Below, in pieces: positions 446 through 28,150 of a stretch of DNA of 42,118 nt (positions within the stretch are counted from its first letter, which is position 1; every line of letters starts with the position of its first letter). The DNA lies in IMG/VR virus record IMGVR_UViG_3300027687_000027, positions 1-42,118 of that record; one strand, 5' to 3'. The stretch is from a virus. Under the pieces are notes generated by a model. The model worked only from the letters and a program-made list of their open reading frames with translations. It was not told where the DNA came from and did no database searches. The position numbers and the translations under genes were made by a program.

Positions 446-3400
446 TGGCAGATTTTAGAATTGATAGAATTAGGTTTCGTTGGAAAAGTGCGTGGACTAC
501 TGCAACGATATACATAAAAGACGACTTTATTATCTATCAAGGTAAAGCATATGTTTGTTTAATAGGACATACTTCAAATGCAAGTTTTTATACTGATTTA
601 GGTGCAGCTTCGCCTAACTGGATATTAATGCAAGACGGATATGAGTGGAAGAATCAATGGTTGCCAAGTACATATTATGATGTAGGGAACATTGTTAAAT
701 TTAATGCATATGTTTACAGATGTTTAACACAGCATACTTCTGCAGCAACAACACTATTAGGAATAACTAGCGATAACAGTAAATGGGAAATTGTAGCTAA
801 AGTTACTAATTGGTTACATAACTGGACAGTTAGTACTGAATACAACCTAGGGGATGTAGTAAGGTATAATGGATATGTATATGTAGTCAACACCAAGCAC
901 ACATCAACTACTACACTAGCACTAGGTTTAGAAAACGATCAATCGTATTGGTCGCAAGTTACAACATCAGATCATTGGAGCGGTGATTGGACTGTTTCAA
1001 CTAGATATAAAGTATCAGACGTAGTAAAACACGGCGGTATACTTTATAGAGCTAATCAAGGTCATACTAGTGCTGCAGATTATATAGACGGTGAATATTC
1101 GTACTGGGATATTGTAAACTCAGGGATTGAATATAAAGGTGAATGGGCAGTATCAAATAGGTACAAATTAAACGATGTTATCAAATACGGACCAAGTCTT
1201 TGGAAATGTAAAACTGAACATACTTCTAATGCAACATTATTTACATTTGATCAAACTACTGATGTAAGTACAAATAAATGGGATATATGGTTACCTGGAT
1301 TAGAGTTCGAAACAATTTGGAACTACCAAACTCAATATTCTCAAGGCGATATTGTATTGTATGGCGGCTATGCGTATACTGCTTTAACAAATCATCAAGG
1401 CTCAGTTCCAAGTATAAATGGAATATTACAAGATACAGGAAACTGGGAATTATTAAAAGCTGGTTACAAGCATATGGGAGACTGGGGAGAAGACAGCTCA
1501 GGATTTGATTATAATACTGGCGACGTTGTTCGCTTAAATGGTTTCTTATATATTTGTGTATCTGACTCACACGATGGTGCATCTCCAGACGGCTCTGCTT
1601 TATGGCAGATATTAGTTACAGGTCGTCATCATAGAGCTGAATGGAATGATAATACACAATACGAAAAAATGGACGTTGTATTGTTTGCAGGCTCTGCGTA
1701 TCTATGTGTTAAACAACATTTATCAACAGCATCAGCATCAAGACCAGATTTAGATATTCCTTATGAACAAGAACAATTTTGGTCATTATTAATTCAAGGT
1801 GAAGCTACAAACGTACTAACAGAGGTTGGCGATTTAAGAACAACTAACTCTGAAGTAGATAGTTCAATGGCAGATGAAAGATTAGGCATTGGCGCCGCCG
1901 GTATGGTTCTTAAATCTAATAATCCTTTTGATGCAACAATTGCAACAGGAACATTACCCCAATGGGGTAACTTTGGCGCTATACCAAAAGTTTATTATGT
2001 GTCAGTTTCAAATGGGATAGATGTTACTACAAACGGCACTACTGAGGGTGCACCGTTTAAAACAATAAAATATGCATGTGATTATATTCAAGCTAGTTTA
2101 GCAGCAAGAGCTCCGGCAACTGTATTTGTTAAAACAGGAATGTATGAAGAAATTCTTCCAATTAGTATTCCAGCTGATGTTGCTGTTGTAGGCGACGAGT
2201 TAAGAAGCACATCAGTGTTTCCAAAAGCAGGTTATGAAACTAGTGACATGTTCTATATGAGAAACGGCTCGGGACTTAGAAATATGTCGTTAAACGGTCT
2301 TAGCGGAACACTAGGAGCAATAAATTCATACGGAACAAGACGTCCTACTGCTGGTGCTTTTGTAAGTTTAGATCCGGGAACAGGACCAGCAGATACTTCA
2401 GTGCATATTGTTAGTAAATCTCCGTACGTACAAAACGTATCAACATTTGGTACAGGATGTATTGGATTAAAAATTGACGGTTCTTTGCATAATGGCGGAT
2501 ATAAATCTGTAGTAGCTAACGACTTTACGCAAGTATTAACAGATGGTATCGGTTATTGGGCAAAGTTTAACGGAGTATCAGAACTTGTATCAGTGTTTAC
2601 ATATTACTGTCATATAGGATATCTAGCAGAAAATGGCGGACGGTTAAGAGCTACTAACGGTAATAACTCTTATGGAGATTTTGGATCAGTAGCCGAGGGA
2701 GTTAATCCTAGTGAAACAGCAAAAACAGGAACAGTAACCAACCAATCTACAGAAGCACAAATAAAAACTGTAGAAACAAACGGTGAAGGCATACTAGCAT
2801 TTGCTTACTCAAATACAGGATCAAACTATACTGGTACGCCTAGTATAACATTAGCAGGATCAGGATACGGGGCTAGTGTTGCATACGAAGAAATTAGAAA
2901 GAATGCACTATCAGAAATAAGAATAACTGACCCAGGAGATTCAAGTACAGCTGGCGGAATTAATTATACTTACATTGTAAATAACGCCCAACTTGGAGAT
3001 AGCGTTAGTATTACGTTATCAGCTGCTGATGTTACAGGAACTCAAGTAGCATATCTTGGACACCGAATTGTTATACTATCAGGAGCAGGCGTTGGACAAT
3101 ATGGTCTAATTAGTTCTTATAATAATGTAACTAAAATTGCAACAGTTGAACGAGAAGTTGACGGAACAGCTGGATGGGAACATCTTTATCCAGGTTACCC
3201 TATTGCAAATGTGTTAAACGCATCAACAAAATATGCAATTGAGCCAAGAGTTGTAGTACCCGAACCAGCATTTGCATCAAGTGTAAAAACAGCACCTCAT
3301 ACAATAGGTGCATTAACTGCATTAGGAAATACTTTTATATCAACTACAACTAATGCAATATCATACTCGGCAAACGCCGGAACAACATGGTCATCAGCAA

Positions 3401-5534: not shown

Positions 5535-8500
5535 ATGGCTGAATTTAAATTAGGAAGAATTAAGTTTGTATGGAAAGGTGATTGGACCACTGCAACTATA
5601 TACTATAAAGACGACATTGTTAGACAAGGTGGTAATACGTATATATGTATTAAGGGTCACACTGCCGCGGCGCTATTTACAACTAACCAAGCAACATATT
5701 GGGATAAAATTTCCGACGGACAGGATTGGAAAAGTGATTGGGTTGCAGGAACTTATTATAAAGTTAACGATGTTGTTGCGTACGGTGGTTACTTATATAT
5801 TGCCAACACAGGACATACAGCAGCAGCTACAAGTACACTAGGACTAGAAGCAGATCAAAGTAAGTGGGATACTTTTGCTGAAGGGTTTAATTATAAAACA
5901 GCTTGGGCTACTAGCACTCGATATAAAATTAACGACCTTGCAAAATACGGTGGAACAGTATATACTTGTATTACAGGACATACATCTGCAACAACTACAG
6001 CAGATGGATTAGAAGCTGATCAATCTAAATGGCAAATATTTTCAGAAGGTTTTAATTGGAAAAGTGATTGGACGCAAACCTACCGTTATAGAGTAAACGA
6101 TATTGTAAAATACGGCGGAACAGTTTACGTTTGTATTACAGGACATACATCAGCAAGTACTTCATCAGGCCTTGAACAAGATCAAGCTAAGTGGCAGTAT
6201 TCAAATAAAGGCATAGAATACTTAGGTAACTGGGCAACTGCCACACGCTATAAAGTAAACGATGTTGTTAAGCACGGTGGTGCAATTTGGATTTGTGTAA
6301 CACATCATACTAGCCAATTATACCTTACAGAAGACGAATCAAAATGGGACCAATTTGTTGAAGGTTTAGAATTTGAAGATAGTTGGAGCGGAACAGTTCG
6401 CTATCAACCAGGCGACTTTATTACATATGGCGGTTATTCATATGTAGCTATTACTAATAGTTTAGGAGCAAGACCTACATCAAGTCCAAACGATTGGGAT
6501 TTATTTACAGCAGGTTTCCGCTTTATTGGTGACTGGGGAGATGATAGTTCAAACTACGAATATTTTACAGGAGATGTTGTTAGATTAGGCGGATACACTT
6601 ATCTTGCTATAGCAGACAACTCAGGACAACGTCCACCTAACGCAACTTACTGGCAGAAACTAAACAGTGGTATTGCTTGGAAAAATGCCTATGCTAACTC
6701 TACATTATACGATGCAGGAGATTCAGTTAGACAGGGAACAAGCAGTTATATCTGTATACTAGCACACACTTCAAATACTGGTGTTAACGATCCAGCTAAT
6801 GATGGCCCTGGAACTTATTGGAACCAATTAGCAGGCGGACCTGAAACTGACGTATTAACAACACAGGGTGATTTACTTTATTATAGTGGTTCAGGCCCAG
6901 GCAGATTACCAGTAGGTGCTGCAGGACAAGTTCTTACTGTAAACGCAGGAGCAACTGCACCTGAGTGGGCATACCTTGGAAAAATCAATAATATATTCTA
7001 TGTAGATACAAATACAGGCCAAGATCTTCCACCATCAAATTACGGTGTAACATTAGCAAGACCTTGGAAAACTTTAAGGTACGCTACTGAACAAGTTGAA
7101 ATTGGAGCATTAAGAGAAAATTCTACATACTTACTTAAAAGAAATAGAAACTTTATTGCAGAAGAAATTGTGCAATGGGTTAAATGGAACATTGCAAACC
7201 CGTCAGGTATCTGGGCAAGTTTTACTTTAGATAGTGAAACAGCGTGTCGTAGAGATATGGGACAAATTGTTGATGCATTAGTTTGGGATATATCGCACGG
7301 TGGTAATAAACGAACAAGAGATGCTACAAACGCATATTTTCAATCTAACGGAAATCTACTTACAGTGGTTGCAGATGAAGATGACCAAACAGTGGCTGCA
7401 ATTAATTACGGACTAACAGTTATAGATAGAGTTTTAAGTAACTTAGCGCCAGCTACAAACTATCAAACAACAAATAGTTTTAGTCCGGCGCATGTACAAA
7501 TAATTGATGCAACTTATACTGAAGAAACCGACGCTCAGGGCATAGTAACAAGTCTAGTAGGAGTTATTACAACAGCAATTACAGCTGGTGTAAATACAAA
7601 TGTTCCTGCAGAAAGAGTAGCAAACAATAGTATATTTGTTAAAACTGGACAATTAAATGAAGTATTACCAATAATTGTTCCTAGAGAAACTGCAATTATA
7701 GGAGACGAACTGCGTAGTACTAAAATTGTTGCAGCAGGAGCGTTAACAGCGGCCGCTGATACTCCAAAGAGTTTAGCAGCAATTGTTAGATTAAAAGCTC
7801 TAATAAGCAATATTTGTACTAATACCGGAGTTACAAAAACTTCCGGAAATGCACTAAGTCAAATAACTACACGGGTAGCAGGATCAAGTGCAGCAGGAAC
7901 TGCTGCAAACGGATTGCTCCAGGAATTAAATGACTACATTGATTATCGTGTTAATGGCGTAAGCGGTGACTCTACAGTTCCAGTAACTACAGGAACAAAT
8001 ACACCTAGTACGGATACAGGATATCTTTTTGCTGTAGAATGTATCGAAGCAAACAGAGCATTCCTTAAAGCAGAAGCAATTGCATTTATTAATGCAACAT
8101 ATCCAAGTTATGTTTATATTGAAGCAAGTTGTAGTAGAGATGTTGATAGATACTTAGATGCAATTATACATGATATGATTTACACTGGAAATTATAAAAC
8201 ATTACTACATGCACGTTATTACAGTAATTCAGTTAGCGGAAGTTTAACTGAAGATATGTTCTACATGAGAAACGGAACTGGATTAAGAAATTGTAGTATT
8301 AGCGGACTTGCAGGAGCATTAGGTAGTGCTAACAGTTACGGAACTAAGCGTCCAACAGCAGGAGCATTTGTAAGTCTAGACCCAGGTTTTGGTGTATCAG
8401 ATACAAGAGCTCATATCGTTAGTAAGTCACCATACGTACAAAATGTATCAACATTTGGTACAGCATGTATTGGATTAAAAGTTGACGGAGCAATACATAA

Positions 8501-10319
8501 TGCAGGTTACGATTCAATTGTTGCTAACGACTTTACACAAATTTTAAGTGACGGTATTGGTGCATGGGTTACTAACTTAGGTAGAGCAGAACTTGTTTCG
8601 GTTTTTACTTATTATAATCATGTTGGATATCTAGCAGAAAACGGTGGTAAGATTCGTGCTACTAACGGTAATAACTCCTATGGAGATTTTGGATCAGTAG
8701 CTGAAGGACAAGATGCAACAGAGGTACCTATTACTGGTACAGTTGATAACAGGTCTACTGAAGCAACAGTTACTAATGTATTAACAGACGGCAACAATAT
8801 TTTAACATTAGAATATTCTAATGCTGGTGTTGGATACACAGCAGGCGGTACAACAATATCACCAACAGGAGAAGGATACGGAGCTGCAATAAACTCAGCA
8901 GTTGTAGCTACAACTGGCGGAGTATATGAAGTTAGGTTATTAAATCCGTCAAATGATTTAGGTGGCGCAGGATATAAAGTTGCAGCAGGTGTAGCACAAG
9001 CAGGAACAACTACTCAAATAACAATTTCAAACACTGATACTGGTACTAATAGTACCTATACTGGAATGAGTATTTTTATTACTTCTGGAGTCGGAGCGGG
9101 ACAGTATGGTTACGTTAACGCCTATAACTCAGGAACTAAAATAGCAACAATTAAAAAGCACAGTGATGCTAGTGACGGATGGGATCATGTTACAGGAGTT
9201 GCTATTGCAGCAACACTTAATGATACTACAAATTATATAATTGAACCACGTGTAACGTTTAGCGGCGGAGGAGTTAGTGCATATGCTGACATTGCCAAAG
9301 GGCGTGTTAGTGTTGCAGACGGCAAAATAGCAGCAGTTAGAATATGGGATTCAGGTACTGGGTACAGCTCAGCACCAACATTTACATTAACAGACCCAAA
9401 CAATACAGACGATGCTCCACATGCAGTTAGATACGGCGATGGCGTACTAAGACAGCCAACGTGGACTAATAGAGGAACATCATTCACTACAGCTGCAGCA
9501 ACAATAACTGGTGACGGTTATGCTGATAGATATCAAGCAGGTAATTTTGTACAAGTTTCAGGATTAGCATCGAGTCCTCAAGCAGGAGCAAATATTACAT
9601 TTGCTGGTGTTGCAGGAACTTGGTATAAACTAGTAGCAGTTACTAACTTAACAGGATCAGGACCGTATGCCGGATTATTACAACTTAGCCCACTTGTTAG
9701 TGTAACAGATGCTCCAGAGCACGGCGAAGCAGTATCAGCAACTATTAGGTACAGTCAAGTACGATTAACAGGACACGATTTCTTAGATATTGCTACTGGT
9801 GATTTTGCTGAAACTAATTACCCAGGCACACCAAGTACTAATCCTAATCAAACAAAAGAAACAAACGATTTTGGTGGCGGAAGAGTATTTTATACATCAA
9901 CAGACCAAGACGGTAACTTCCGTGTAGGATCGTTGTTTAGTATTGAACAGTCTACTGGTATTGCAACACTAAATGCTGATGCATTTAATATATCAGGACT
10001 AAATCAGCTACAACTTGGTGCAGTTGCCCTAGGTGGTACTGGTGCTACAATTACAGAATTTTCCACAGACGGAACATTTACAGCAAACAGCGATAATATT
10101 GTTCCAACACAAAAAGCAATTAAGACTTATATTACTAGTCAAATTGGTGGAGGAGCAGGTGAACTTAATGTAAACAGTCTAACAGCAGGAGTAGTGCAAA
10201 TTAGTGGTAGCACAATAACCACAACTACAGGTGTTGGAATAAATACACTACAGAAGGTAAACTTTACTAAAGGTGTTGACGGTCATCCGTTAGCAATGAA
10301 CTACTACTTAAATCAATAG
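5535..10319 (+). CDS. Giant tail fibre/adhesin B, paralogue of the preceding gene
   Basis: The protein has 1594 aa. Residues about 10-435 contain eight CBM-like repeats in the same register as fibre A. A beta-helix region runs from about residue 490 to 1070 and contains IFVKTGQLNEVLPIIVPRET and ATNGNNSYGDFGS. The C-terminus repeats the TDQDGNFRVG, NFNISGLxxLxLG and IVPTQKAI elements. Unlike fibre A it has no propeller. Instead two helical C.RD...ivDA...D modules (near residues 568 and 865) are inserted in the helix region; a related module occurs at the N-terminus of the 2031-aa protein at 19079. A tandem duplication with later domain swapping explains the pair. It probably forms a second fibre, or a heteromeric fibre with A, for glycan recognition. 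Confidence 0.85.
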   Translation: MAEFKLGRIKFVWKGDWTTATIYYKDDIVRQGGNTYICIKGHTAAALFTTNQATYWDKISDGQDWKSDWVAGTYYKVNDVVAYGGYLYIANTGHTAAATSTLGLEADQSKWDTFAEGFNYKTAWATSTRYKINDLAKYGGTVYTCITGHTSATTTADGLEADQSKWQIFSEGFNWKSDWTQTYRYRVNDIVKYGGTVYVCITGHTSASTSSGLEQDQAKWQYSNKGIEYLGNWATATRYKVNDVVKHGGAIWICVTHHTSQLYLTEDESKWDQFVEGLEFEDSWSGTVRYQPGDFITYGGYSYVAITNSLGARPTSSPNDWDLFTAGFRFIGDWGDDSSNYEYFTGDVVRLGGYTYLAIADNSGQRPPNATYWQKLNSGIAWKNAYANSTLYDAGDSVRQGTSSYICILAHTSNTGVNDPANDGPGTYWNQLAGGPETDVLTTQGDLLYYSGSGPGRLPVGAAGQVLTVNAGATAPEWAYLGKINNIFYVDTNTGQDLPPSNYGVTLARPWKTLRYATEQVEIGALRENSTYLLKRNRNFIAEEIVQWVKWNIANPSGIWASFTLDSETACRRDMGQIVDALVWDISHGGNKRTRDATNAYFQSNGNLLTVVADEDDQTVAAINYGLTVIDRVLSNLAPATNYQTTNSFSPAHVQIIDATYTEETDAQGIVTSLVGVITTAITAGVNTNVPAERVANNSIFVKTGQLNEVLPIIVPRETAIIGDELRSTKIVAAGALTAAADTPKSLAAIVRLKALISNICTNTGVTKTSGNALSQITTRVAGSSAAGTAANGLLQELNDYIDYRVNGVSGDSTVPVTTGTNTPSTDTGYLFAVECIEANRAFLKAEAIAFINATYPSYVYIEASCSRDVDRYLDAIIHDMIYTGNYKTLLHARYYSNSVSGSLTEDMFYMRNGTGLRNCSISGLAGALGSANSYGTKRPTAGAFVSLDPGFGVSDTRAHIVSKSPYVQNVSTFGTACIGLKVDGAIHNAGYDSIVANDFTQILSDGIGAWVTNLGRAELVSVFTYYNHVGYLAENGGKIRATNGNNSYGDFGSVAEGQDATEVPITGTVDNRSTEATVTNVLTDGNNILTLEYSNAGVGYTAGGTTISPTGEGYGAAINSAVVATTGGVYEVRLLNPSNDLGGAGYKVAAGVAQAGTTTQITISNTDTGTNSTYTGMSIFITSGVGAGQYGYVNAYNSGTKIATIKKHSDASDGWDHVTGVAIAATLNDTTNYIIEPRVTFSGGGVSAYADIAKGRVSVADGKIAAVRIWDSGTGYSSAPTFTLTDPNNTDDAPHAVRYGDGVLRQPTWTNRGTSFTTAAATITGDGYADRYQAGNFVQVSGLASSPQAGANITFAGVAGTWYKLVAVTNLTGSGPYAGLLQLSPLVSVTDAPEHGEAVSATIRYSQVRLTGHDFLDIATGDFAETNYPGTPSTNPNQTKETNDFGGGRVFYTSTDQDGNFRVGSLFSIEQSTGIATLNADAFNISGLNQLQLGAVALGGTGATITEFSTDGTFTANSDNIVPTQKAIKTYITSQIGGGAGELNVNSLTAGVVQISGSTITTTTGVGINTLQKVNFTKGVDGHPLAMNYYLNQ

Positions 10320-10334
10320 ATATGGAGAAATAAA

Positions 10335-10652
10335 ATGGCAAGTGGAAGATTAGGAGCAAATGATGTAGCGGCAGCAACATATACGACAGTATATACCTGT
10401 CCGGCGTCTACATTTGCTGTTGTAAGCATTAACTTTTTAAATAGAGGAAATGCATCGTGTTTTGTAAGATTAGCAGTAGCTGATGCAAGTACCCCAACAG
10501 CAGGAGAGTTTATGGAATATGATACTGAACTCACTGCTAAGTCGGTTCTAGAAAGGACTGGACTTGTGTTAAGTGCTGGTCAATTATTAGTTGTTTATTC
10601 GAACATTGCAAACATAAGTGCTGTGACGTTTGGAATAGAGACAGCGGCATAA
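10335..10652 (+). CDS. Small virion structural protein
   Basis: This 105-aa, beta-rich, Ala/Ser/Thr-rich protein contains RLGANDVAAATYTTVYTCPA at the N-terminus and LNRGNASCFVRLAVADA in the middle. Similar short proteins occur in the fibre regions of marine T4-like phages and are usually called virion structural proteins; no biochemical role is known to me. It follows fibre B by 15 bases with a GGAGA ribosome site, so it is probably co-transcribed. A small beta-sandwich capping or decorating protein would fit. Confidence 0.65.
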   Translation: MASGRLGANDVAAATYTTVYTCPASTFAVVSINFLNRGNASCFVRLAVADASTPTAGEFMEYDTELTAKSVLERTGLVLSAGQLLVVYSNIANISAVTFGIETAA

Positions 10653-10676: not shown

Positions 10677-11009
10677 ATGGGAAGATATATTAATGCAACT
10701 CCTGGAGTAGCTTCGGTAATACGTACAATTAGTACAACCTACCAAGCATTGCCAAACGATCGTATAATGGCAGATTGTAATAGCGCCGCTTTTACAATTA
10801 CATTACCAGCTGCAGCAAGTATTGTAGCAGGAGATGTAATACAAATTTACGATATTACCGGAAGTGCAGCTACAAATAACATTACAGTAGGCAGAAACAG
10901 TTCAAATATTAATAGTACTGCAGCCGACTTAACAATAAATGTTGCTAACGCTGTGACTACACTAACGTATACTAATGTAACGTACGGCTGGGTTATTACA
11001 AATAACTAA
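10677..11009 (+). CDS. Small fibre/adhesin-like domain protein
   Basis: This 110-aa protein contains the pattern FTITLPAAASIVAGDVIQIYD, then GSAATNNITVGRN, then TLTYTNVTYGWVI. That combination is a common beta-stranded module in phage tail fibres and appendages (ITLP..GD.I.I.D..G.A..NNITV..N). Here it stands alone as a single-domain gene. It probably forms a trimeric or stacked appendage element beside the cysteine-rich adhesins; exact function unknown. The spacing to the next gene is 15 bases with a GGAGAGAG ribosome site, so the next gene is likely in the same transcript. Confidence 0.65.
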   Translation: MGRYINATPGVASVIRTISTTYQALPNDRIMADCNSAAFTITLPAAASIVAGDVIQIYDITGSAATNNITVGRNSSNINSTAADLTINVANAVTTLTYTNVTYGWVITNN

Positions 11010-11024: not shown

Positions 11025-12032
11025 ATGGCTACGCTATCATCGATCATACTGGCAAAGAATCCAACATTTGTTAACCAGGAAAATAATCTAGAAAAAGGGA
11101 GATTGTTTTATTTCTCTCCTGTTCAACAACATAATCAATGCACTAAGTTTACCTGGAAATCTCCAGGTGCAGGAACTGCACGGATAGAAATTTGGGGGGC
11201 AGGCGGAAGCGGTGGCAAAATGTGTTGCTGTGGAGGCGGAGTACCCGGCAACCCTGGAGCATATGTAGTTAAAACTTTTATAACTGATGCAGCAAGCAAA
11301 GTTTGCGGATGTATTGGTATTTCTTGTGGTAATGCTGACGTATTGTGTTACAGAGGAAGAAGTACAGGAACTTGTGTGTGCTGGTTTGGAACAGCTGCAG
11401 ATTCAGCACTTTGTGGTTGTTTATGTGCAGAAGGCGGCGAAGGCGGAACAACATGGTGTGCGCCAAGTTCGTCAAATTTTTGTTGCTTTGTAGCAGACGC
11501 AAAATTTTGTACAACAGCAATGACCAATCCTGCAGGAGTAGCCTGGGGAACAGGTTGTGGACTAGCATGTAATACAAGAAACACAACTGCCGCATTAACA
11601 ATAGCCAATGCATATGGCGGAGATCTTAACTGCCCAGGCGGAATTAGCTGTACAAGTTGGTATAATTGTGATAGTGCAAACCATTGTTATGCTCAATACC
11701 ATATACGAACTCCAGCAGGTGTACACAGTACATGCGGAGCAACAGTAACGTACTCAGGAGACAACGACAGTGCAATCGCTGTAGGCGGAACAGCACAGTA
11801 TCACTCATCACACAAAATGGCATTAGAAGCAGCATCAAGGTCTCCAGAAGCCGGGCACACTATGGGGTTGTGTTATTTTAGTAGACTGTGTGGATGTTAT
11901 GAAGTTAACGGTTGTCAAGCAACTCTACCGCACGGGCATGGCGGCGCACCTCCACAAACATGTAGTGGTGTTAGAGATCAAGGACAACGTGGCGGCATGG
12001 GGGCTATTAGAATATTATGGAATGCAACTTGA
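11025..12032 (+). CDS. Cysteine-rich glycine-rich tail adhesin, paralogue 1 of 3
   Basis: The protein has 335 aa and I count 29 cysteines (8.7%), many as CC or CxC pairs. A strand ending IEIWGAGGSGG (near residue 54) is followed at once by a CCC cluster, and the C-terminus is RGGMGAIRILWNAT. This IxIWGAGG ... GGxGxxRIxW frame is the pattern of glycine-rich phage fibre-tip domains, including T2-type gp38-like adhesins built from glycine-rich motifs. The cysteines occupy the loops between. I infer a receptor-binding tip protein stabilised by disulfides or bound metal. The N-terminal NLEKGRLFYFSP segment is shared with the next two genes and may be the attachment region. A zinc- or iron-loaded spike is an untested alternative. 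Confidence 0.6.
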   Translation: MATLSSIILAKNPTFVNQENNLEKGRLFYFSPVQQHNQCTKFTWKSPGAGTARIEIWGAGGSGGKMCCCGGGVPGNPGAYVVKTFITDAASKVCGCIGISCGNADVLCYRGRSTGTCVCWFGTAADSALCGCLCAEGGEGGTTWCAPSSSNFCCFVADAKFCTTAMTNPAGVAWGTGCGLACNTRNTTAALTIANAYGGDLNCPGGISCTSWYNCDSANHCYAQYHIRTPAGVHSTCGATVTYSGDNDSAIAVGGTAQYHSSHKMALEAASRSPEAGHTMGLCYFSRLCGCYEVNGCQATLPHGHGGAPPQTCSGVRDQGQRGGMGAIRILWNAT

Positions 12033-12057
12033 TGATTAACTATAGGAATTTATTATA

Positions 12058-13065
12058 ATGGCAACTTCACTCTCAACTTTAATTAACGACAGACTAGCAA
12101 AGTCGTTTCCTCCCGAGGAATCTAATCTAGAAGATGGACAGATTTTTGTATTTTGTTCAGCTAGAGAGTTTGGCTGCTTTACTAACTGTTTTGCTTGGTA
12201 TGCACCAGCAGCAGGAACTGCTAAAATTGAAATTTGGGGAGCAGGAGGAAGTACTGGGTGTCAATGTTGTTGTAACTATAGTGTAGGTGGACAATCAGGC
12301 GCTTATGTTAAAAAATCAGTAACAATGGCATCAGGAGGATATGTTTGTGGAAACACAGGTCATCCTTGTATGCCTAACGCAGCTTTTTGTTATCCAAACT
12401 GTTCAATGGCAACGTGTGCAACAATTTGCTTAGGAACAGCAAGTTCATGTAGTTGTATATGTGCTCAAGGTGGTAACGGCGGATTTTCAGGATGTCATAC
12501 AGGACAATCAACTCATTGTTGTTTACAAAAATGTTGTTTTGGTACTGTAAATGGATCTAGTTTAACTGTAACCCCAACAGGCACAGGTTGCGGATATACA
12601 TGTGGATGTAGAAATACATATGCTGTAGCAACCGGCTACGGCGGAGATATTAATTGCCCAGGAACATATGGTTGTACTGGATATTGGACTTGTAACACAT
12701 CAAGTAGTACAAATCATATGCAACACTCAAACGCTATACCACATGGACAGTACTCAACCGGTCAAGCAACGTCAATGGTTGGAGCAGACAGTGGTCATAC
12801 AATGGGTAACTCACAATCAGGACAGGGTCCTAGTAATTTACAAGGTGGTAGAGGAGCGATAAACAGAAACAGCGGAGCAGGCCATATGGGGCTCTCATCA
12901 TGTTGGGCCAGTGGTACAACATGTGCATGTTATGAAACATTTGCGTGTATCTCATTAGTACCGCCAGGACAAGGATCTTCAATGATGCAAGGTTGTCCAG
13001 ATGTAAGAAACGTTGGTAGCAGGGGCGGCCTTGGTTACGTAAGAATATTATTTAAAGCGACATAG
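12058..13065 (+). CDS. Cysteine-rich glycine-rich tail adhesin, paralogue 2 of 3
   Basis: The protein has 335 aa with 32 cysteines by count (9.6%). It has the same frame as its neighbours: NLEDGQIFVF near residue 25, IEIWGAGGS followed by CQCCC, a CSCICAQGGNGG motif in the middle, GYGGDINCPG around residue 195, and C-terminal RGGLGYVRILFKAT. The section around residues 225-280 is rich in Gly, Ser, Gln and Asn and differs most from paralogue 1, as expected for a receptor-contacting loop region under diversification. The gap from paralogue 1 is 25 bases with a TAGGAA ribosome site. The function is inferred to be host recognition. Confidence 0.6.
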   Translation: MATSLSTLINDRLAKSFPPEESNLEDGQIFVFCSAREFGCFTNCFAWYAPAAGTAKIEIWGAGGSTGCQCCCNYSVGGQSGAYVKKSVTMASGGYVCGNTGHPCMPNAAFCYPNCSMATCATICLGTASSCSCICAQGGNGGFSGCHTGQSTHCCLQKCCFGTVNGSSLTVTPTGTGCGYTCGCRNTYAVATGYGGDINCPGTYGCTGYWTCNTSSSTNHMQHSNAIPHGQYSTGQATSMVGADSGHTMGNSQSGQGPSNLQGGRGAINRNSGAGHMGLSSCWASGTTCACYETFACISLVPPGQGSSMMQGCPDVRNVGSRGGLGYVRILFKAT

Positions 13066-13076
13066 GAAAAAATTAC

Positions 13077-14171
13077 ATGGCAACTTTATCATCATTATTA
13101 TCAAGCAAGTCTTTGCTTACAGACGGAACTGAAGAAACAAATCTGGAAGGTGGAAGACTATGGGGCTACAGTCCGCAAAACCACAGTGAATTTTCAGGAG
13201 GCGGAGCAAAGTTTTATGGTTGTCAAATTTCAAACGATAATGCTTGGGTAGGCGAAGTCGAGGTAGAGATGTGGGGAGCAGGCGGTCGAGGCAATAGCTG
13301 TAGTTGTTGCTGTGCTTCAGGACCAGGTGGTAATCCAGGGTCCTATATAAGATTTAAAACTATAATGACACGGTCAGGATTTATCTGTACTACAGGAATG
13401 AGAGCATGTCAAAGTGGTGCACACTGTCAATGTGGAGGACAAGGATCTGCAACTTGTGCAATTGTATGTGCTGGATGTATACCGAATACATGTGTATATA
13501 CATGTTCTTGTGCATGTGCTCAAGCAGGGCTAGGCGGAAGATCTATGTGTATTAGTGGCGGCGCATCAATGATGTGTTGCTTAGGAACAAACGGAGCATG
13601 TATTACCCCTAACGTAGATTATGAAGGTAATGCTGTTAGTGACGGATGTGGAATGGTTTGTAATGTTGGTAACGCTAACAACTGGCCTACAGTAGCAAGT
13701 TTACCGGTAGCTAATTACACTAATGGCGGCAATATATCTAGCGTTGTTTGTTGTAACAGTGATATTAACAGAGTAGCATGTATATTCTACGGACATTGTA
13801 ATCAATGTTGCTGGAACTGTCATAGACAAATAATACATACAGCACCAATGAGATATTCAACATGTGGCGGAGAGATGCAACTTAATCATGGTTGGAGTGA
13901 CAACATGACATACCAGGGTAGTCCTTTTGGACAGATGGATGCAGCTGTGCAAGGGATGAGTAGATCACCAACAGCTGGGTTAAGACCAAGTTTTTGTTGG
14001 CAAGGATCAAAAATGTGTACTTGTTATGAGTGGACAGGATGTACACCGTTTTGGCCTATAGCACAATCGGCTCCGTCTGATTTTGCATGTAGTGGTGTTA
14101 GAACACACGGGTTCACAGGCGGTCACGGAGCAATAAGAATTAAATACTTAGGAAATATAACAGTCTATTAA
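13077..14171 (+). CDS. Cysteine-rich glycine-rich tail adhesin, paralogue 3 of 3
   Basis: The protein has 364 aa with 35 cysteines by count (9.6%). The frame is conserved: NLEGGRLWGYSP, VEMWGAGGRG followed by CSCCC, CSCACAQAGLGG in the middle, and GFTGGHGAIRIKYLG near the end. A unique stretch around residue 240 combines His and Cys (HCNQCCWNCH), which resembles a metal-binding cluster more than disulfide pairs. It is longer than its neighbours and has a short extra tail (NITVY). It starts 11 bases after paralogue 2 with a TAGGAAAA ribosome site. The set of three suggests a repertoire of related tips or a hetero-oligomer. Confidence 0.6.
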   Translation: MATLSSLLSSKSLLTDGTEETNLEGGRLWGYSPQNHSEFSGGGAKFYGCQISNDNAWVGEVEVEMWGAGGRGNSCSCCCASGPGGNPGSYIRFKTIMTRSGFICTTGMRACQSGAHCQCGGQGSATCAIVCAGCIPNTCVYTCSCACAQAGLGGRSMCISGGASMMCCLGTNGACITPNVDYEGNAVSDGCGMVCNVGNANNWPTVASLPVANYTNGGNISSVVCCNSDINRVACIFYGHCNQCCWNCHRQIIHTAPMRYSTCGGEMQLNHGWSDNMTYQGSPFGQMDAAVQGMSRSPTAGLRPSFCWQGSKMCTCYEWTGCTPFWPIAQSAPSDFACSGVRTHGFTGGHGAIRIKYLGNITVY

Positions 14172-14232: not shown

Positions 14233-14901
14233 ATGATTACAAAAACTTTTACCCAGAATTACCCAGATCAGCCTTGGGCAGCGGCAGTAACAGATGGAAA
14301 CAGTGTTACTGTAACATGGAAAGGCACTCGTTATTATACTTTTAGTAGAGTTACTGCAACAGGCGGAGTACATGCATTTGAAGATCAAGATGACAATCGT
14401 GATAGGTTAGCAGCTGAACTAGCTTCTCATGTACACGAAGGTCATACTTTTCACATATTAGATGCATTAGCACATCCACATGTAGCAGCTTACATAATGG
14501 GCGATGACACTATTCCTGCACACGATGCAACAGGAGGCATACCACATTATGTTTTCAACACACCAAACGATGATGAAGATTACGTATATGAGTACAACGT
14601 TCAAAACTTTGTACAATCATTATACAACGGACAGGAAGCAATAACATATAATGTTGATAGTGACACTTTTACAATGCCTGGCTTCTTGGCACATCCACTT
14701 TCTAACACAAGTATTTTTACTGCATACGAAGAAGAAGCAGAAAGAATTGATTCAGCAGTTACAGGTAGAGCAGATGAATTTACAGCAGATGAACTAACAG
14801 CATTAAAAGCTTCTTCAGTATGGCTTAAAGGTGTAAGAGCAAGGTACGGATCAATTGAACCGTGGAAAATTCCACACCCAGAGCACGGCGTTACATACTA
14901 A
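14233..14901 (+). CDS. His-rich protein of unknown function in the adhesin locus
   Basis: This 222-aa protein resembles no family I can name firmly. It has a beta-rich N-terminus (residues 1-50), then a histidine cluster with six His in about seventeen residues (SHVHEGHTFHILDALAHPH, near residues 76-94), an acidic Asp/Glu-rich middle, and a helical C-terminus (EEEAERIDSAV, ELTALKASSVWLKGVRARYG). A helical C-terminus on a beta head recalls tail-fibre assembly/chaperone proteins, and its place directly after the adhesin genes would suit a gp38- or gp57-like helper; this is only inference. The His cluster could bind a metal, which is notable beside three cysteine-rich proteins. The start has an AAGGAA ribosome site. 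Confidence 0.6.
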   Translation: MITKTFTQNYPDQPWAAAVTDGNSVTVTWKGTRYYTFSRVTATGGVHAFEDQDDNRDRLAAELASHVHEGHTFHILDALAHPHVAAYIMGDDTIPAHDATGGIPHYVFNTPNDDEDYVYEYNVQNFVQSLYNGQEAITYNVDSDTFTMPGFLAHPLSNTSIFTAYEEEAERIDSAVTGRADEFTADELTALKASSVWLKGVRARYGSIEPWKIPHPEHGVTY

Positions 14902-14991: not shown

Positions 14992-15945
14992 ATGAGATCA
15001 AAGGCTTTTTTTGTCAACGGCGGATACGGTAGAGTGGTTAGTTCTATTCCCGGCTTTGAACTATATGCTAAAGAATCAGGCGATAAAGACTTTATTATTG
15101 TTTGCGAAGGCGGCACTGATGCATTTAAAGGACATCCAGATTTAGATCATAGAGCGTATGATAACTGGCACAAGAATTTATTTAAAGAAAAATTAATTGA
15201 TAAAGATATTGTATCACCTGAACCATATCGAATATGGGAATACTATAATCAAAAAGCTAGTTTAGCTCAAGGTTATGATATTGCAATTAATAACAAAGGT
15301 TTAAGAGATTTACCAAAACCAAGAATGTTTCTATCAAAAGAAGAAACACTTATGGGTAGACAAATAGTTAATCAAGTAAAAGAAAAATTAAAAAAAGAAA
15401 AAGTTGCAATTATTCAACCATTTGGTAGAGGAATAACTCACGTAGATAACACATTTGTTGACAACACTGGACGAAGTATTGAATACAAAGATCTTAAAGA
15501 AATAATTAGAAAACTACAAGAAAATGATTTTGCTGTAGTAACAATGGCAGAAATGGGATTTGATTTTACTAAAGATAAATTTAAAGACGATGTTGCAATG
15601 CCAGAATCAGTTTCATTGAGACATTGGTCTGCAGCAATTAAGTTTGCCAATCATTTTATTGGTTGTGATAGTGTTGGACAACATTTGTCGTATATCATGG
15701 ACACACCTTCAACAATTATTCTTGGTCCTACATATCCTATAAACGTATCTTATCCTGATTGTGATTATTTTAATATTGTTGATTTAGGTCAACACGGTAG
15801 AGTATATGATCCAATTAGAATAATGCCAGACGAAACTACATCAAGACATAATGAAAATTTAATGTCAATGAGTAAAGATATTGTTGAATATGTAATTGAT
15901 AGAGTATTAGGAAAACCAATAGAGGAAGAAAATGACACAAAGTAA
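14992..15945 (+). CDS. GT9/heptosyltransferase-like glycosyltransferase
   Basis: This 317-aa protein appears to have two Rossmann-like halves. The C-terminal half carries HFIGCDSVGQHLSYIMDTPS followed by TIILGPTYP, which corresponds to the FIGxDSGxxHLAxxLGTPtvxLFG motif of GT-B family 9 enzymes (LPS heptosyltransferases and relatives). The segment KVAIIQPFGRG near residue 145 fits the start of the donor-binding half. The N-terminus (FFVNGGYGRVVSSIPGFELYAK) fits the acceptor half. GT9 enzymes commonly use ADP-heptose, and ADP-heptose genes are on the minus strand about 10 kb away. The substrate is inferred. Its end overlaps the carbamoyltransferase by 14 bases, so the two are coupled. It could instead use another ADP- or GDP-sugar. 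Confidence 0.65.
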   Translation: MRSKAFFVNGGYGRVVSSIPGFELYAKESGDKDFIIVCEGGTDAFKGHPDLDHRAYDNWHKNLFKEKLIDKDIVSPEPYRIWEYYNQKASLAQGYDIAINNKGLRDLPKPRMFLSKEETLMGRQIVNQVKEKLKKEKVAIIQPFGRGITHVDNTFVDNTGRSIEYKDLKEIIRKLQENDFAVVTMAEMGFDFTKDKFKDDVAMPESVSLRHWSAAIKFANHFIGCDSVGQHLSYIMDTPSTIILGPTYPINVSYPDCDYFNIVDLGQHGRVYDPIRIMPDETTSRHNENLMSMSKDIVEYVIDRVLGKPIEEENDTK

Positions 15946-17743
15946 AACACAATGGATTGCAGGAATTGCAAGAGGCCACAATTCAGGAATTTGTTTATTA
16001 AAAGATGGCAAAATTGTATTTTCAATAGAAGAAGAAAGACTAAGTCGTACCAAATACGATGGAGGACCGTTGGCGTCTATTGTTAAAATCTTAGAATATA
16101 CAGATAGACTAGATTACTTAGTTGTAGCTCATACTCAACCGTTAAGTGTGTCATCGCCTAAATTAGAATTTTCCGGTGACGATGTATATACAGGGTTGTG
16201 TAAAAAATTAGGATTAATAGATGGAAAATTTAGAGGACAGGAGCAGCATCCTCAAGTTGTCGATGTATCTGATCAACATCATAAGTTACATGCAGCGTGT
16301 GCGTTTTATAGAAGTGGATTTGAAGATGCAGTGGGTGTAGTAATTGACGGTGCAGGAACATTTATACAAATGACTGTGAATAACGAAGATACAATGGGTT
16401 TTGAAACTGAAACATTATTTAACTGCTCTTATCCTGCAAAGTTTCAAACAATAGGAAAACATATTGCAACTAGAGGACCGCATGCTACAGATTTTATTCA
16501 AACAGAAGAAGATGGAAACTCGCTTGAAATAACAGTATCCGATCGTGCCGGCATAGTTAAAGTTTATGAAGCAGTTACTCAGTACTGTGGGTTTAGTGCA
16601 ATTGAGGCTGGAAAAACTATGGGACTATTTCCATATGGTGAAAAGAATGATAAAATTCCTCAATTATTTGACGATATGGGCAGAGTTCCGTTGTCAAATA
16701 GAAATTTAGTTGCTCCAACATATCCTAATGCTGCAGTAGTGAATGAACATTTATACACTGAGTTATCTGGAAAAAATATTTATGATGGATCACCAGAAGG
16801 CGAAACCATTGACCTAACTCTTTTGCAAAATAGAAGAGACCTTGCGTATGCATGTCAAACCGAAACTCAACAAGCCGCTTCTAATTTAATTAGAGAAGCT
16901 GTTGAAAGAAGTGGTAAAAAGAATGTAGTAATTAGTGGCGGATACGGATTAAATTGTGTAGCAAACTATTATTACTTAAAAGATCTAGAAGACTTAGATA
17001 TAAACCTTTACGTAGAACCAGTGTCTAATGATGCAGGTACTGCTATGGGTGCTGCTATGATGATGCATCATCAACTTACAAATAGCGAAGTAGTTTTAGA
17101 TAGAACAAATAATTTATATCTTGGACCAAAATATGATTATAAGTCGCAACAACTTAAAGCAATTGCTAAAGAATATAACGCAGATGTAACTGATTGCACA
17201 AATGAAGATGTAATAGATTTAATTACTTCAAAAAATATTGTTGCAATTTTTCAAGGTCAAAGTGAAAACGGACCAAGAGCACTAGGCAACAGATCATTGT
17301 TATATGATCCTACTGATCCTAACGGCAAGGATCATGTTAACGAAATTAAACATCGAGAATACTTTAGACCGTTTGCAGGTAGTATCTTAGAAGAAGATGT
17401 ACACGAATGGTTTGACCTACGTGGTATGGAAAGTTCTCCAACTATGATGTATGCTGTAAATTGTCAGCCTGGCATTGAAGAAAAGATTCCTGCTATTATT
17501 CATGTTGACGGAACTTGTCGTATTCAAACCGTTAATAGAGACCAAAATAAACATTATTATGATCTAATTAAAGCGTTTAAAGAAAAGACAGGATGTCCTA
17601 TAATCTTTAATACAAGTTTTAATTTAGGTGGTGAACCTCTTGCAGAAACTCTTCAAGATGCACTTTGGACCTTGCAGGAAAGTAGAATAGAATACTTGTA
17701 TCTTCCTGAATATCAAACTCTGTTTACATTGAAAAACGAATAA
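15932..17743 (+). CDS. O-carbamoyltransferase, NodU/CmcH/TobZ family
   Basis: This 603-aa protein has the family's usual length and two-domain order. The N-terminal Kae1-like domain has ARGHNSGICLLKDGKI, the acidic EEERLSR motif, the metal-binding HxxxH (H116 KLH120) and VVIDGAGTF. The C-terminal YrdC-like region includes SGGYGLNCVANYYY, the phosphate-binding NGPRALGNRSLLYDP and EYFRPFAGSIL. Such enzymes move a carbamoyl group from carbamoyl phosphate, via carbamoyl-AMP, onto a hydroxyl of a sugar or antibiotic. Overlap with a GT9-like gene points to a sugar acceptor. In Pseudomonas aeruginosa the LPS core heptose is 7-O-carbamoylated, so a heptose acceptor is plausible but unproven. Confidence 0.88.
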   Translation: MTQSKTQWIAGIARGHNSGICLLKDGKIVFSIEEERLSRTKYDGGPLASIVKILEYTDRLDYLVVAHTQPLSVSSPKLEFSGDDVYTGLCKKLGLIDGKFRGQEQHPQVVDVSDQHHKLHAACAFYRSGFEDAVGVVIDGAGTFIQMTVNNEDTMGFETETLFNCSYPAKFQTIGKHIATRGPHATDFIQTEEDGNSLEITVSDRAGIVKVYEAVTQYCGFSAIEAGKTMGLFPYGEKNDKIPQLFDDMGRVPLSNRNLVAPTYPNAAVVNEHLYTELSGKNIYDGSPEGETIDLTLLQNRRDLAYACQTETQQAASNLIREAVERSGKKNVVISGGYGLNCVANYYYLKDLEDLDINLYVEPVSNDAGTAMGAAMMMHHQLTNSEVVLDRTNNLYLGPKYDYKSQQLKAIAKEYNADVTDCTNEDVIDLITSKNIVAIFQGQSENGPRALGNRSLLYDPTDPNGKDHVNEIKHREYFRPFAGSILEEDVHEWFDLRGMESSPTMMYAVNCQPGIEEKIPAIIHVDGTCRIQTVNRDQNKHYYDLIKAFKEKTGCPIIFNTSFNLGGEPLAETLQDALWTLQESRIEYLYLPEYQTLFTLKNE

Positions 17744-17753: not shown

Positions 17754-18155
17754 ATGTTTAGTTTAGCAAAATTTTTTAATAAAGGTCTAAAGGACAGTGT
17801 GTTATTTCTTTCAAATGGTGCAATGTCTCATAATGGTCCTTGGAAGCAAGTATATACTAATACACTTTTAGATAGGTTTCATGTTGGTGACTTTTCTTCA
17901 GCGGAATACACTATCTCGGTTGATTATGATAAAGACAAAAAAGAAATACTTAAAGTATTAGTAACTGCAAGCCTAGACGAAGCAAGTATTATAATTTATG
18001 CAAGGAATAATCTAGGCACCAATCTTGTTAATATAACTGCTACAGTAAACAACAGCTATGTTGATATTATTGCTAATCCTACGGCATCAAATGAAGGATC
18101 CAAAATAATTTATACTGTTCAATATTATCAGAATCAAAATCCTCAAGTTGTCTAA
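17754..18155 (+). CDS. Hypothetical protein, orphan
   Basis: This 133-aa protein is unrecognised. It starts with an amphipathic, basic segment (FSLAKFFNKGLKDSVLFLSN), followed by beta-rich sequence with alternating hydrophobics and a C-terminus ending YYQNQNPQVV. There is no clear ribosome site before the first ATG, which lies ten bases after the preceding stop and just after a late octamer. An internal Met at residue 24 (MSHNGPWKQV) is an alternative start that would remove the basic segment. Its place between carbamoyltransferase and fibre genes suggests a small virion or fibre-associated protein, with low certainty. Confidence 0.6.
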   Translation: MFSLAKFFNKGLKDSVLFLSNGAMSHNGPWKQVYTNTLLDRFHVGDFSSAEYTISVDYDKDKKEILKVLVTASLDEASIIIYARNNLGTNLVNITATVNNSYVDIIANPTASNEGSKIIYTVQYYQNQNPQVV

Positions 18156-18167
18156 CATTTATAATAT

Positions 18168-18175
18168 GATAAATA
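18168..18175 (+). promoter_or_regulatory. Late promoter octamer GATAAATA
   Basis: GATAAATA lies 25 bases before the ATG at 18201, with a strong AGGAGGA ribosome site between. It matches seven of eight T4 late-core positions and sits in a 45-base intergenic gap. Confidence 0.65.
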
Positions 18176-18200
18176 TGTTAACTAGGAGGATTAATAGGAT

Positions 18201-19073
18201 ATGCCAACAGTTACAAATAAACAACTAGAGTCTACGTACGGTTTTAAAAGTACAGGCTTTTCTGTAGATAATGCTGGAAATATAACAGCTCTGTCACTTG
18301 TACAAACTGGATTAGTTTCAGAAGAAGTAATAGACGGATCTACCCCAGCTAATTATACTATAACTGAAAACGGATCTAATACTGCATATATTTGGGCACC
18401 TGGCGTTAGCGAAAATCCTACAGTAGTTTTATCTAGATCTTCGTCATATATTATTGACTTAACTTCATTAACAAACGGACTATATTTTTATAATGGTGCA
18501 ACACAGTTTAGTACAGGACTTACGCACACAGACGGAAGTAATGGCGACACAGCTCAAGGCAAAACATCTGGCAGACTAGTTTGGAACGTACCACTTACTA
18601 CTCCGGATACTATAACATATAGAAATTTATCTGGAACAATATCTGGAACAATATCAATAACTGACCCTATAGGACAATTTGATACTGTTACAATTAATAA
18701 TTCTACTATCTCAACAAATAGTACAACCGGTGCATTAATTGTAACTGGTGGAGCAGGAATAGCATTAAATTCTAACTTTGGTGCAGATGTAGGTGTTGTT
18801 GGAACATTAACAGTACCAACAATAAACTCATTAACATCACTTGCACTTAAAGTTGCAGGATCCACAGTTGGCACTCTAACAGCAACAGGAATGGCTGATA
18901 TGGCTATAAATAACAGTAGTATAAACAATAGTGTCATTGGCGCAACTACTCCAACAACAGCTAGTTTTACTTCGGCTATAATAGCAAATGCCCCGACAAC
19001 AAAAACATCGGGAACAAATAAGAAATATGTAGATGATACAGCTTTAGCTTTATCAATAGCACTTGGGATTTAA
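18201..19073 (+). CDS. Tail fibre protein with cupredoxin-like and fibre-shaft segments
   Basis: The protein has 290 aa. Residues about 45-155 (YTITENGSNTAYIWAPG, then PTVVLSRSSSYIIDL, then GRLVWNVPLTTPDTITYRNL, then GTISITD) follow the layout of a cupredoxin-like beta-sandwich often found in marine phage virion proteins, but without visible copper ligands. Residues about 160-260 are short Ser/Thr/Asn/Gly-rich repeats (VTINNSTISTNSTTGALIVTGGAG) typical of a trimeric fibre shaft. The C-terminus NKKYVDDTALALSIALGI resembles the helical end of phage fibre proteins that precedes removal or a partner-binding site. It is probably a side or distal fibre subunit, co-transcribed with the next gene five bases downstream. 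Confidence 0.7.
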   Translation: MPTVTNKQLESTYGFKSTGFSVDNAGNITALSLVQTGLVSEEVIDGSTPANYTITENGSNTAYIWAPGVSENPTVVLSRSSSYIIDLTSLTNGLYFYNGATQFSTGLTHTDGSNGDTAQGKTSGRLVWNVPLTTPDTITYRNLSGTISGTISITDPIGQFDTVTINNSTISTNSTTGALIVTGGAGIALNSNFGADVGVVGTLTVPTINSLTSLALKVAGSTVGTLTATGMADMAINNSSINNSVIGATTPTTASFTSAIIANAPTTKTSGTNKKYVDDTALALSIALGI

Positions 19074-19078
19074 ATAAG

Positions 19079-22000
19079 ATGGCAAAAACACAGATTAAAG
19101 ATTACGTTTTTAAACCAGGTATAAGTGCAACAGCTTACGTTTATCCAGATGGTTACAGTTTAATAAGTCAAAACAAAGCATACTTACAAGCAGAAGCTAC
19201 AGCTTGGATAGCAGCACAAGTTACGGCTGGTGCATCAGGGTTTGTAGGTTATACATTTAACGAATCAAAATGCCAACGAGATTTAGGATATATTATTGAT
19301 GCATATCTTAATGATTTGCGATATGGCGGCAATGAGGAAACAAGTAGAGTTACTGGATATTATTGGGAAGGCACAACAGCTCAAATTGATGGCGACAGAC
19401 AACCGGAAATACAAACTCATACAGAAATAAGAAATATAATAAACAATTATATATTAACTAATACTGCACATACTTCTTTAAGCCTTTCTTCACAAGTAAT
19501 TGATTCAAGTAAAACTACAGAATCAGGTGTAACTACACGAGTTACAGAGTTATCAAGTATTGTAATCAATGTTATTACAACAGGATTATCAGCAATGCCA
19601 ACACTAGTACCTACTGGTGTTACTACTATTAAGATACAAGGCAGATACGAAGGTAAAGAGTTACTGTTAATTACTAATACTACAAGTAACGAAGTAATTT
19701 ATAATTTTACATCTAATGAATTAGGCGGAACAGTTAAGTATAAAACACATGGTGCTGATACTGATTTTCCAAAATATTTACAAATTACTGATAGTGTAAC
19801 TACATTAAGTCTTAATAAAGATACATCGTCACATGCAAGCACAGACGATATTCAATTATTTGTAGAATCAGAATTTATAAGAACTAAGCCATATGATTTT
19901 GGTGTTGACGCAATTGAGAGACAAAGAATAGCAACACCATTAGCTATGCTTGACGCTGACTTTGAATACGGACTACAGCCTACTAAATGGTCAGCTATTG
20001 GAACGCTTCGAGGATATCCTAGCATATACGAAATTCCAGGAACAAATACAGACGTTCAAACTGTAGTTACAGATGCAAGTGCTGGTACAAGTGGTGTGGG
20101 ACAATCATTAATAACTGTTACAAGTGTTAGCCCGCATGGATTTCAAGAAGGCGAACCAATTACTATTAAAGCGTTAGAAAATAGTGTTGCAGGAGCTGCA
20201 AGAGCTGAAGGTAGTTTTGTAATTAATTCTACTCCAACAACACTTACGTTTACATATTATGCAAAAGCAAAAGTTGGTACATCAAATGGTGATATACTTG
20301 CTACGTCTTATACTCAATTAAGAAAAGCAGGATTTTATACAGGAGCAGCAATTGGTAGTCCGCAACTTGCTGTTGCTATTCAAGGATTTACTGTAATAGC
20401 TCAAGGCGCCTCGGGGGTATTAACTTCTGAGCTTATTACTCCGTCAGGTAGTACTAGAGTTCCATATGATGGAACGTCTCCAGAAATTGGTGCTCCATTA
20501 GTTGTATCACAGATACCAACTGGTTCGCAGGTAACAGGAGTTATTGATCAGTCAGCAGGTGGCGGCTCTTACTTAACACCTCAGTTAGCTAATGATGTGC
20601 CAGCTGGATCATCTAGTATGACACTAGTTGATGCAACTGGAGTATTAGCAAACTTAGCTCTTGACAACGGAACAGGAACTGCGTCATTTGTTGAAACTGT
20701 TAATTATAGCACAAAGGTTATTACTTTGTCATCTCCAACTACTGCTCCGTATTCAGGTAATGTAGTTATATACTCAGGTGTAACGGGTACTAATTATGTA
20801 TCAGTAGGGCAAAACGTAGCTATTACGATTGCGTCAGACGGAACAGATTATACTGTGTCTAGTATCACTGTTCCAGGAACTGGATATCTAGTCGGAGACA
20901 GGCTTACTGTATCAGGAAGTAGTCTTAGCGGATCAACACCAACAAACGACCTTGTTGTAAGAGTTAGCACAATTGATAGTGACAATGGAGTAACAGCATT
21001 AACAGTTATTTCAGGAACACCGTTTGGCGGTGCAGCAACGTTTAATGGATTAACACCATCAACAGCAAATGGTACCGGAACAGGAGCAACTTGGACTGGT
21101 AGCTACACAGATAATGTATATTCAACAGTAGTATTAGGTGGCACAGCCACTGGATATGCAGTAGCTGATAGAATTATTATTTTAGGATCTGTATTTGGAG
21201 AGAACGGGGTAGACGGAACACACGATCTTGTTATTAGTATTGCAGCCGTCGACGGCAGTGGCGCTCCGACGTCAACAACACAAACAGGAACAGCACCTGA
21301 TGCAGTACTTGATTTTGTAATTACTGATGACAGTACACAGATGGTTATGTCAGCTGCAGGATCACACTTAACATTTAATAACATTGGATCAGCAGATAGT
21401 TCTAGAACAGCAGGATCATACATTGGTGTAACTGGTACAAGTGGTGGTTCGGGTACGGTAGGAACATTTAACATTACTGTTGATGCAACAGGAACAGCAC
21501 AAGTGGCTAAAACAACTAGTATTGGATCAGGGCATACTGTAGGTGATACAATTACTATAGCAGATAGTGCATTAGGCGGTGGAGGCGCAGCAAATTTAAC
21601 ATTTGATATATCAACAATTGGTAGCGGTGCTGGAATAAATGCAGCGTTTACTGTACGAACAAATGGAGTAAATTATAGCGTAATTAATATTACAGCAGGT
21701 ACAGGATTTATGGTAGGTGAAACCATTACCGTGCCTGGAACTGAAATGAACGGAGCAACAACTGCAAACGATTTACTAATTGAGATAGGAACTGTATCAG
21801 GTACTGGCGGACTAGTAGGGCTTACGGCGGCTGGTACCGCAGTTAATAGTGCTACCTGGGCTAACGCTGGAACAAATTTAATTGGTTCAGGATTTATTGC
21901 TGATATTTCATTTACAGGTGGAACATATAGTATAGACTTTACTAGTCCCGGAGACGGTGGAACAAATTACGGACTAAATCAAACTTTTGTTGTTCCAGGA

Positions 22001-28115: not shown

Positions 28116-28121
28116 ACTATT

Positions 28122-28150
28122 ATTATACCTTCTTTTAACTTATTTGTCAA
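28122..28150 (-). promoter_or_regulatory. Consensus sigma70 promoter for the heptose operon
   Basis: On the minus strand, TTGACA (28150-28145) and TATAAT (28127-28122) are both perfect with a 17-base spacer. The -35 box lies inside the 3' end of the Nudix gene. The ATG of hldE starts seven bases after the -10 box, so the mRNA should be leaderless or nearly so. It would let host RNA polymerase express the cassette early. Confidence 0.85.

Follow-up and report, generated by a model that had tools for sequence, protein, structure and literature searches.

Three tandem genes next to the tail fibre genes of a marine phage encode cysteine-loaded paralogous proteins. The recurrence of the trio in scores of aquatic phages and the fidelity with which it keeps its cysteines suggest a tip for host binding that is chemically cross-linked, or else loaded with metal, and seemingly undescribed. 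The genes lie in a 42,118-nucleotide stretch of DNA, referred to here in its entirety as the window, and their products are designated paralogues A, B and C. We give a probability of about 0.5 to the reading that these proteins are distal tail-fibre-tip adhesins with a Pam3 gp24-type fold, forming an A:B:C tip with a cysteine network whose disulfides arise after release. Receptor-binding tips determine which microbes a phage kills, and cysteine at 9–10% (against 2.1% in phage Milano), kept in three versions across many aquatic phages, implies a host-attachment chemistry that we did not find described in the literature. Infectivity would be controlled by redox state if the disulfides form when the phage is released; if it is metal that the thiols bind, these phages could also transport trace metal in the sea.

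The three genes and their predicted fold

Encoded on the forward strand are paralogue A (11025–12032; 335 residues, 29 cysteines, 8.7%), a predicted TNF-like and glycine/cysteine-rich fibre-tip adhesin, paralogue B (12058–13065; 335 residues, 32 cysteines, 9.6%) and paralogue C (13077–14171; 364 residues, 35 cysteines, 9.6%), with B and C being 40% and 36% identical to A, respectively. Our recount of positions, lengths and cysteines is identical to that of an earlier sequence-only reading of this DNA. A homology search with A recovers B (E = 2e-51) and C (E = 3.5e-28) and, judged by their sequences, the three are true paralogues. Common to them, as the earlier reading had pointed out, are an (I/V)E(I/M)WGAGG strand, a CCC cluster and a GGxGxxRI C-terminus; the DNA pattern WG..G..CCC has three sites in the window, exactly those of A, B and C, and none in 100 shuffles. 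The remaining proteins of the 32 window ORFs tabulated contain 0–2.6% cysteine. Of the description of the trio as cysteine-loaded and glycine-rich, the first half stands and the second holds in part, the overall glycine content of 14.6–16.1% being below that of true polyglycine tips.

Structure prediction, one of the checks suggested earlier, was run for the A monomer with AlphaFold2 (39 relatives; pLDDT of 75.4 and pTM of 0.76) and gives a TNF-like fold with a glycine-rich domain. The highest structural similarity is to the Pam3 tail fibre (7ypx; VIA-align Z-score of 15.4 over 193 residues, r.m.s.d. of 3.3 Å), followed by the Bxb1 tail tip (Z-score of 11.5) and the glycine-rich domain of ALK/LTK (Z-scores of 8–10), with unrelated entries below 5. 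Among predicted viral models, a member of the phage S-CAM3 trio ranks first, a P-SSM2 protein second and Syn9 gp38 next, and many phage proteins labelled ‘glycine-rich domain’ also match. The gp38 fold of T2/S16, a polyglycine sandwich with a β-helix, is not among the listed matches of A. Located in loops of the model are 11 of 15 near-invariant cysteines, and these loops are, as modelled, the part packed as glycine-rich strands in Pam3; the conserved cysteines at 283–291 fall in a low-confidence part.

Upstream, on the same strand, are two large tail fibre genes (445–5490, 1,681 residues, and 5535–10319, 1,594 residues; 0.7% cysteine each) that match the tail fiber family phrog_9851 (E = 3.9e-173 and 5.6e-214, respectively). 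The product of the second is a candidate shaft for the tip, its attachment being read from gene order. Near the N-termini of both are repeated W...Y..G..V...G..Y modules, which by eye resemble carbohydrate-binding repeats. Between the fibre genes and the trio, also on the forward strand, are a small tail-fibre-domain protein (10335–10652, 105 residues; phrog_11338 tail fiber, E = 6.7e-8), a conserved upstream neighbour with equivalents in phages S-CAM1 and P-SSM2, and a second small protein (10677–11009, 110 residues; phrog_31104, E = 3e-16, and phrog_972 tail fiber proximal subunit, E = 2.4e-7), whose domain occurs in many phage tail fibres.

Following the trio on the same strand is a gene (14233–14901, 222 residues, no cysteine) that likely encodes a fibre assembly chaperone. 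Equivalents are found downstream of the trio in the loci examined, those at this position in phages S-SSM7 and Sf-FS3 exceed the cut-off of PF16778 (Phage_tail_APC), and the profile of the window gene’s group matches that of the cyanophage group at 98.5%. The model of this putative chaperone (pLDDT of 94.6) comprises an N-terminal β part and two long C-terminal helices; a fold search with it matched no solved chaperone, only helical look-alikes. The adhesin identity proposed by the sequence-only reading is backed by the predicted fold of A, by a gene position between long fibre genes and a chaperone-like gene, and by a link to the Gly_rich_2 family through cyanophage relatives.

Further downstream, a conserved gene with an FxNGGxGR motif (14992–15945) comes after the chaperone-like one at almost every locus, its positional equivalent in S-CAM1 being phrog_8954. 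Segments 15932–17743 and 25175–28577 encode a carbamoyltransferase, an epimerase, a PfkB kinase/cytidylyltransferase fusion, a HAD phosphatase, a cupin and a NUDIX protein, a sugar (heptose-type) cassette set amid tail genes. A similar cassette adjoins the trio-type genes of P-SSM2 and S-CAM1, and the ‘cysteine dioxygenase’ annotated there may be such a cupin.

Relatives, copy number and cysteine retention

PHROG 4205, of unknown function, matches A (E = 6.8e-13) and B (E = 0.0056), whereas C has no match of its own in PHROG or Pfam profile searches; the PHROG 4205 profile is matched by 29 of 33 aligned family members. The Pfam search gave no match for the window trio, Gly_rich_2 (PF21722) included. 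One of the 33 family members matches Gly_rich_2 at E = 0.055, short of the curated cut-off, and a relative from S-SSM7 passes it (26.4 versus 24.3 bits). A sequence-profile search of solved structures gave no match for the trio, and the best result of tblastn with A, B and C against phage records was a weak match in S-CAM1 (E of about 2), which provided the route to cultured relatives.

The Synechococcus phages S-CAM1, S-CAM3, S-SSM7 and Sf-FS3 carry three such genes each (24–36 cysteines in 260–329 residues), placed directly after a tail fibre gene or, in S-CAM1 and S-CAM3, behind the genes of two small fibre proteins. An ORF census (at least 150 residues) of S-CAM1 and S-SSM7 found the trio and no further cysteine- and glycine-rich relative; one unrelated S-CAM1 frame with 5.6% cysteine is likely spurious. 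Three copies are not universal, since P-SSM2 has two cysteine-loaded members only, PSSM2_304 and PSSM2_306, with 36 cysteines each, on either side of a cysteine-free gene of 225 residues. All of these trio genes and the P-SSM2 pair are annotated as hypothetical. The profile of the window family matches that of the cyanophage family with 99.6% probability over 258 columns, a type of score inflated by biased composition, and the two families agree in the order of the WGAGG, CCC and CAEGG motifs and in gene order. The hosts of the cultured isolates are marine picocyanobacteria. The closest relatives of the window tail sheath (33762–37103) are sheaths of very large phages of other bacteria.

Phage Syn9 has neighbouring fibre-tip-like relatives (gp36, gp38 and gp39; 17856–21328 of locus L130) with 22–35% glycine and 2–8 cysteines, the ordinary, cysteine-poor counterpart of the cysteine-loaded tips. 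Our reading of this contrast is that cysteine replaces much of the usual glycine. Syn9 gp39 seems to contain an internal duplication and a disrupted frame.

Scanning viral contigs with a profile identified 241 relative-encoding stretches, and the analysis covers the best 80; as the search patterns include CCC or WG motifs, cysteine-poor relatives may be under-sampled in this set. The survey of cysteine counts in homologues that had been called for covers 209 full-length members in the loci analysed, some of them near-identical, with 7.4–11.6% cysteine (mean of 9.8). In a whole-contig search, exactly three paralogues are present in 29 of 29 informative contigs, a count reached after joining split matches (the longer second paralogue in G016, G023, G026, G027 and G028, and the interrupted third copy in G013). 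This includes a clade in which about 22 kb separate one paralogue from the remaining pair (whole in G012, G013, G015, G017, G019, G029 and G033). Nine contigs have a single member; each of these contigs ends before the place where the missing pair would be expected, and those present in the tree all belong to the split clade. The tree of 127 sequences has no same-phage paralogue cherry among 42 and groups the genes by position in the trio, with poorly resolved deep branching among the classes. The three-copy contigs, the lack of same-phage cherries and the clustering by position indicate that the trio is old and has been kept as a trio, making its presence in three copies firmer than the sequence-only reading had claimed.

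Several variants were observed. In contig G013, the third paralogue (35190–36142) contains stops, which may reflect either an error in sequencing or decay of this copy. In one clade (L038, L051 and L065) the second paralogue is about 75–80 residues longer (394–418 residues, up to 43 cysteines), apparently owing to an insertion in one loop. Searching bacterial and archaeal genomes with the DNA pattern found one contig, from a marine MAG labelled Euryarchaeota archaeon (PAOW01000006, 15 kb; L166, 217–2930); it encodes two trio members and a chaperone-like gene, and is probably of phage origin and misbinned.

In a comparison of the window with three relatives, cysteine is kept at 97% of 288 sites, compared with 86% for arginine, 84% for glycine and 47–79% for other residues, and 28–33 cysteines per gene are retained with 3–10 synonymous TGT/TGC changes; cysteine richness is therefore not due to chance. 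Across 123 diverse sequences, 15 columns hold cysteine in 95% or more of them (numbered as in A: 67, 68, 69, 101, 132, 134, 145, 154, 178, 182, 283, 289, 291, 297 and 313). Homologues with unconserved cysteines had been named as grounds for abandoning the idea, and conservation is what the family shows. The variable cysteines are gained and lost along the tree mostly singly and with no pairing signal, and because only a few weak pairs of cysteine columns change together, disulfide partners are not assignable. Of 36 trios, 15 have an odd cysteine total and 21 an even one, parity being uninformative. Of the redox genes sought, thioredoxin is absent from the 15 records searched and glutaredoxin is present in 7 of them, which we take as ordinary in large phages; a search for sulfhydryl oxidase gave no match, with the control equally silent.

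A probable three-subunit tip and its alternatives

The trio probably makes one three-subunit tip. A, B and C would join as a single trimer, in place of a homotrimer, and cap a long fibre distally, with the product of 14233–14901 assisting their folding and assembly. The dense cysteine network would serve as an internal scaffold in the same loop region in which polyglycine tips pack glycine strands, taking the place of the main-chain hydrogen bonds between those strands. Least certain is the next step, in which thiols kept reduced during assembly in the cell would form disulfides in oxic water after lysis. The result would be a hardened tip, with the sequence-variable loops between conserved cysteine blocks binding the receptor. 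Disulfides formed after release are our first choice and bound metal our second.

In favour of this explanation are the fold matches, the conserved trio, the cysteine retention and the conserved fibre neighbourhood, and virion disulfides have precedent in the tails and fibres of Milano and the fibres of Pam3. Standing against it are the two members of P-SSM2, the mostly single cysteine changes, the odd totals, the placement of cysteines 283–291 in the model and the failure of the chaperone model to match a solved chaperone; free thiols, intersubunit bonds or metal could account for the odd totals and single changes. More tentatively, the tip may be an obligate heterotrimer in which about 85–110 thiols per trimer replace the polyglycine lattice and are locked by oxidation or metal after exit, a new adhesin architecture in two distant groups of aquatic myophages.

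Alternatively, each of the three proteins could be an adhesin in its own right, forming a homotrimer on a fibre of its own or serving a different receptor, a possibility that we hold to be somewhat doubtful. The deep divergence of the paralogues (36–40% identity), the location of one of them about 22 kb away next to another fibre-like gene, the homotrimeric state of the solved homologue Pam3 gp24 and the pair in P-SSM2 all fit such an arrangement. A host-range arsenal would, however, show losses and extra copies, whereas the number is fixed at three in all informative contigs, and one chaperone-like gene follows the group in most loci.

It is unlikely, in our judgement, that the same adhesins use their cysteines to bind zinc, iron or copper through CCC, CxC and CxxxC clusters, the metal either stabilizing the tip or acting as bait for a metal receptor of the host, along the lines of the Trojan or Ferrojan Horse idea. 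Dense, clustered cysteines that change singly rather than in pairs suit metal binding, as do thiols that survive in a reducing cytoplasm, and iron is bound through HxH motifs in T4 gp37 tips and has been proposed for fibre tips of marine phages (PMC11705849). That motif is HxH and not cysteine, however, the family alignment has no invariant histidine, and 24 to more than 40 cysteines per protein exceed the usual number of sites. Very improbable is that these are cysteine-rich non-virion proteins that might, for instance, buffer thiols or store metal in the course of infection: the hypothetical annotation of the P-SSM2 and S-CAM1 copies would allow it, but the predicted fibre-tip fold, the Gly_rich_2 match in relatives and the adjacent fibre and chaperone-like genes of all phage groups examined argue otherwise. 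An annotation or assembly artefact, conceivable for an uncultured virus record, is refuted, since cysteine-loaded genes recur in tandem at the corresponding position of five cultured phages and in scores of contigs of independent origin.

Comparison with known systems

Already known are TNF-like/glycine-rich fibre tips and PHROG 4205 as a family of unknown function; to our knowledge, neither a cysteine content of about 10% nor three co-retained paralogues is known in such tips. A full-text search of the literature, itself of incomplete coverage, found no paper on cysteine-loaded fibre tips. Closest in gene content are the PHROG 4205 trios of S-CAM1 (SXBG_00224–00226) and S-SSM7 (SSSM7_114–116), likewise three tandem paralogues with 8–12% cysteine between a tail fibre gene and a chaperone-like gene. 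They are shorter (261–311 residues) and about 22% identical to the window family in a profile alignment, and they belong to T4-like cyanophages, whereas a search for psbA as a pointer to the host found none in 16 contigs with trios of the window type.

Pam3 gp24 (7ypx, 7yfw) binds the receptor as a homotrimer and has a chaperone (PMC9608196). It shares with A the predicted TNF-like and glycine-rich-domain fold, and the layout of its chaperone gp25 is paralleled in the putative chaperone encoded downstream in the window, with a predicted β part and C-terminal helices. Pam3 gp24 is, however, the product of one gene, has 39% glycine in its tip domain and bears a long N-terminal helical shaft, whereas the window has three paralogues with 15–16% glycine and 9–10% cysteine and only a short predicted N-terminal helix. 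ALK/LTK belongs to the same fold class, but is an animal receptor domain that shares the fold alone. The gp38 of T2-type phages and S16 is, like the trio, a separate glycine-rich receptor-binding tip with variable loops (PMC12892980; comparison in PMC9608196); it differs in having a polyglycine lattice and a single gene, and is not listed among the direct matches of the A model.

Disulfides themselves have been described in phage particles. Pam3 fibres are attached through disulfides, as described in PMC11821841, and in the Agrobacterium phages Milano and 7-7-1 structural proteins including fibres are disulfide-linked in mature particles. The tails and fibres of Milano are cross-linked in this way, and 2.1% cysteine in its structural proteins counts as unusual (PMC10811340). 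In Milano this cysteine is spread through the virion; in the window, the other recognized tail proteins have 0–1.9%, so that there is no Milano-type enrichment across structural proteins, and the 9–10% is confined to the trio.
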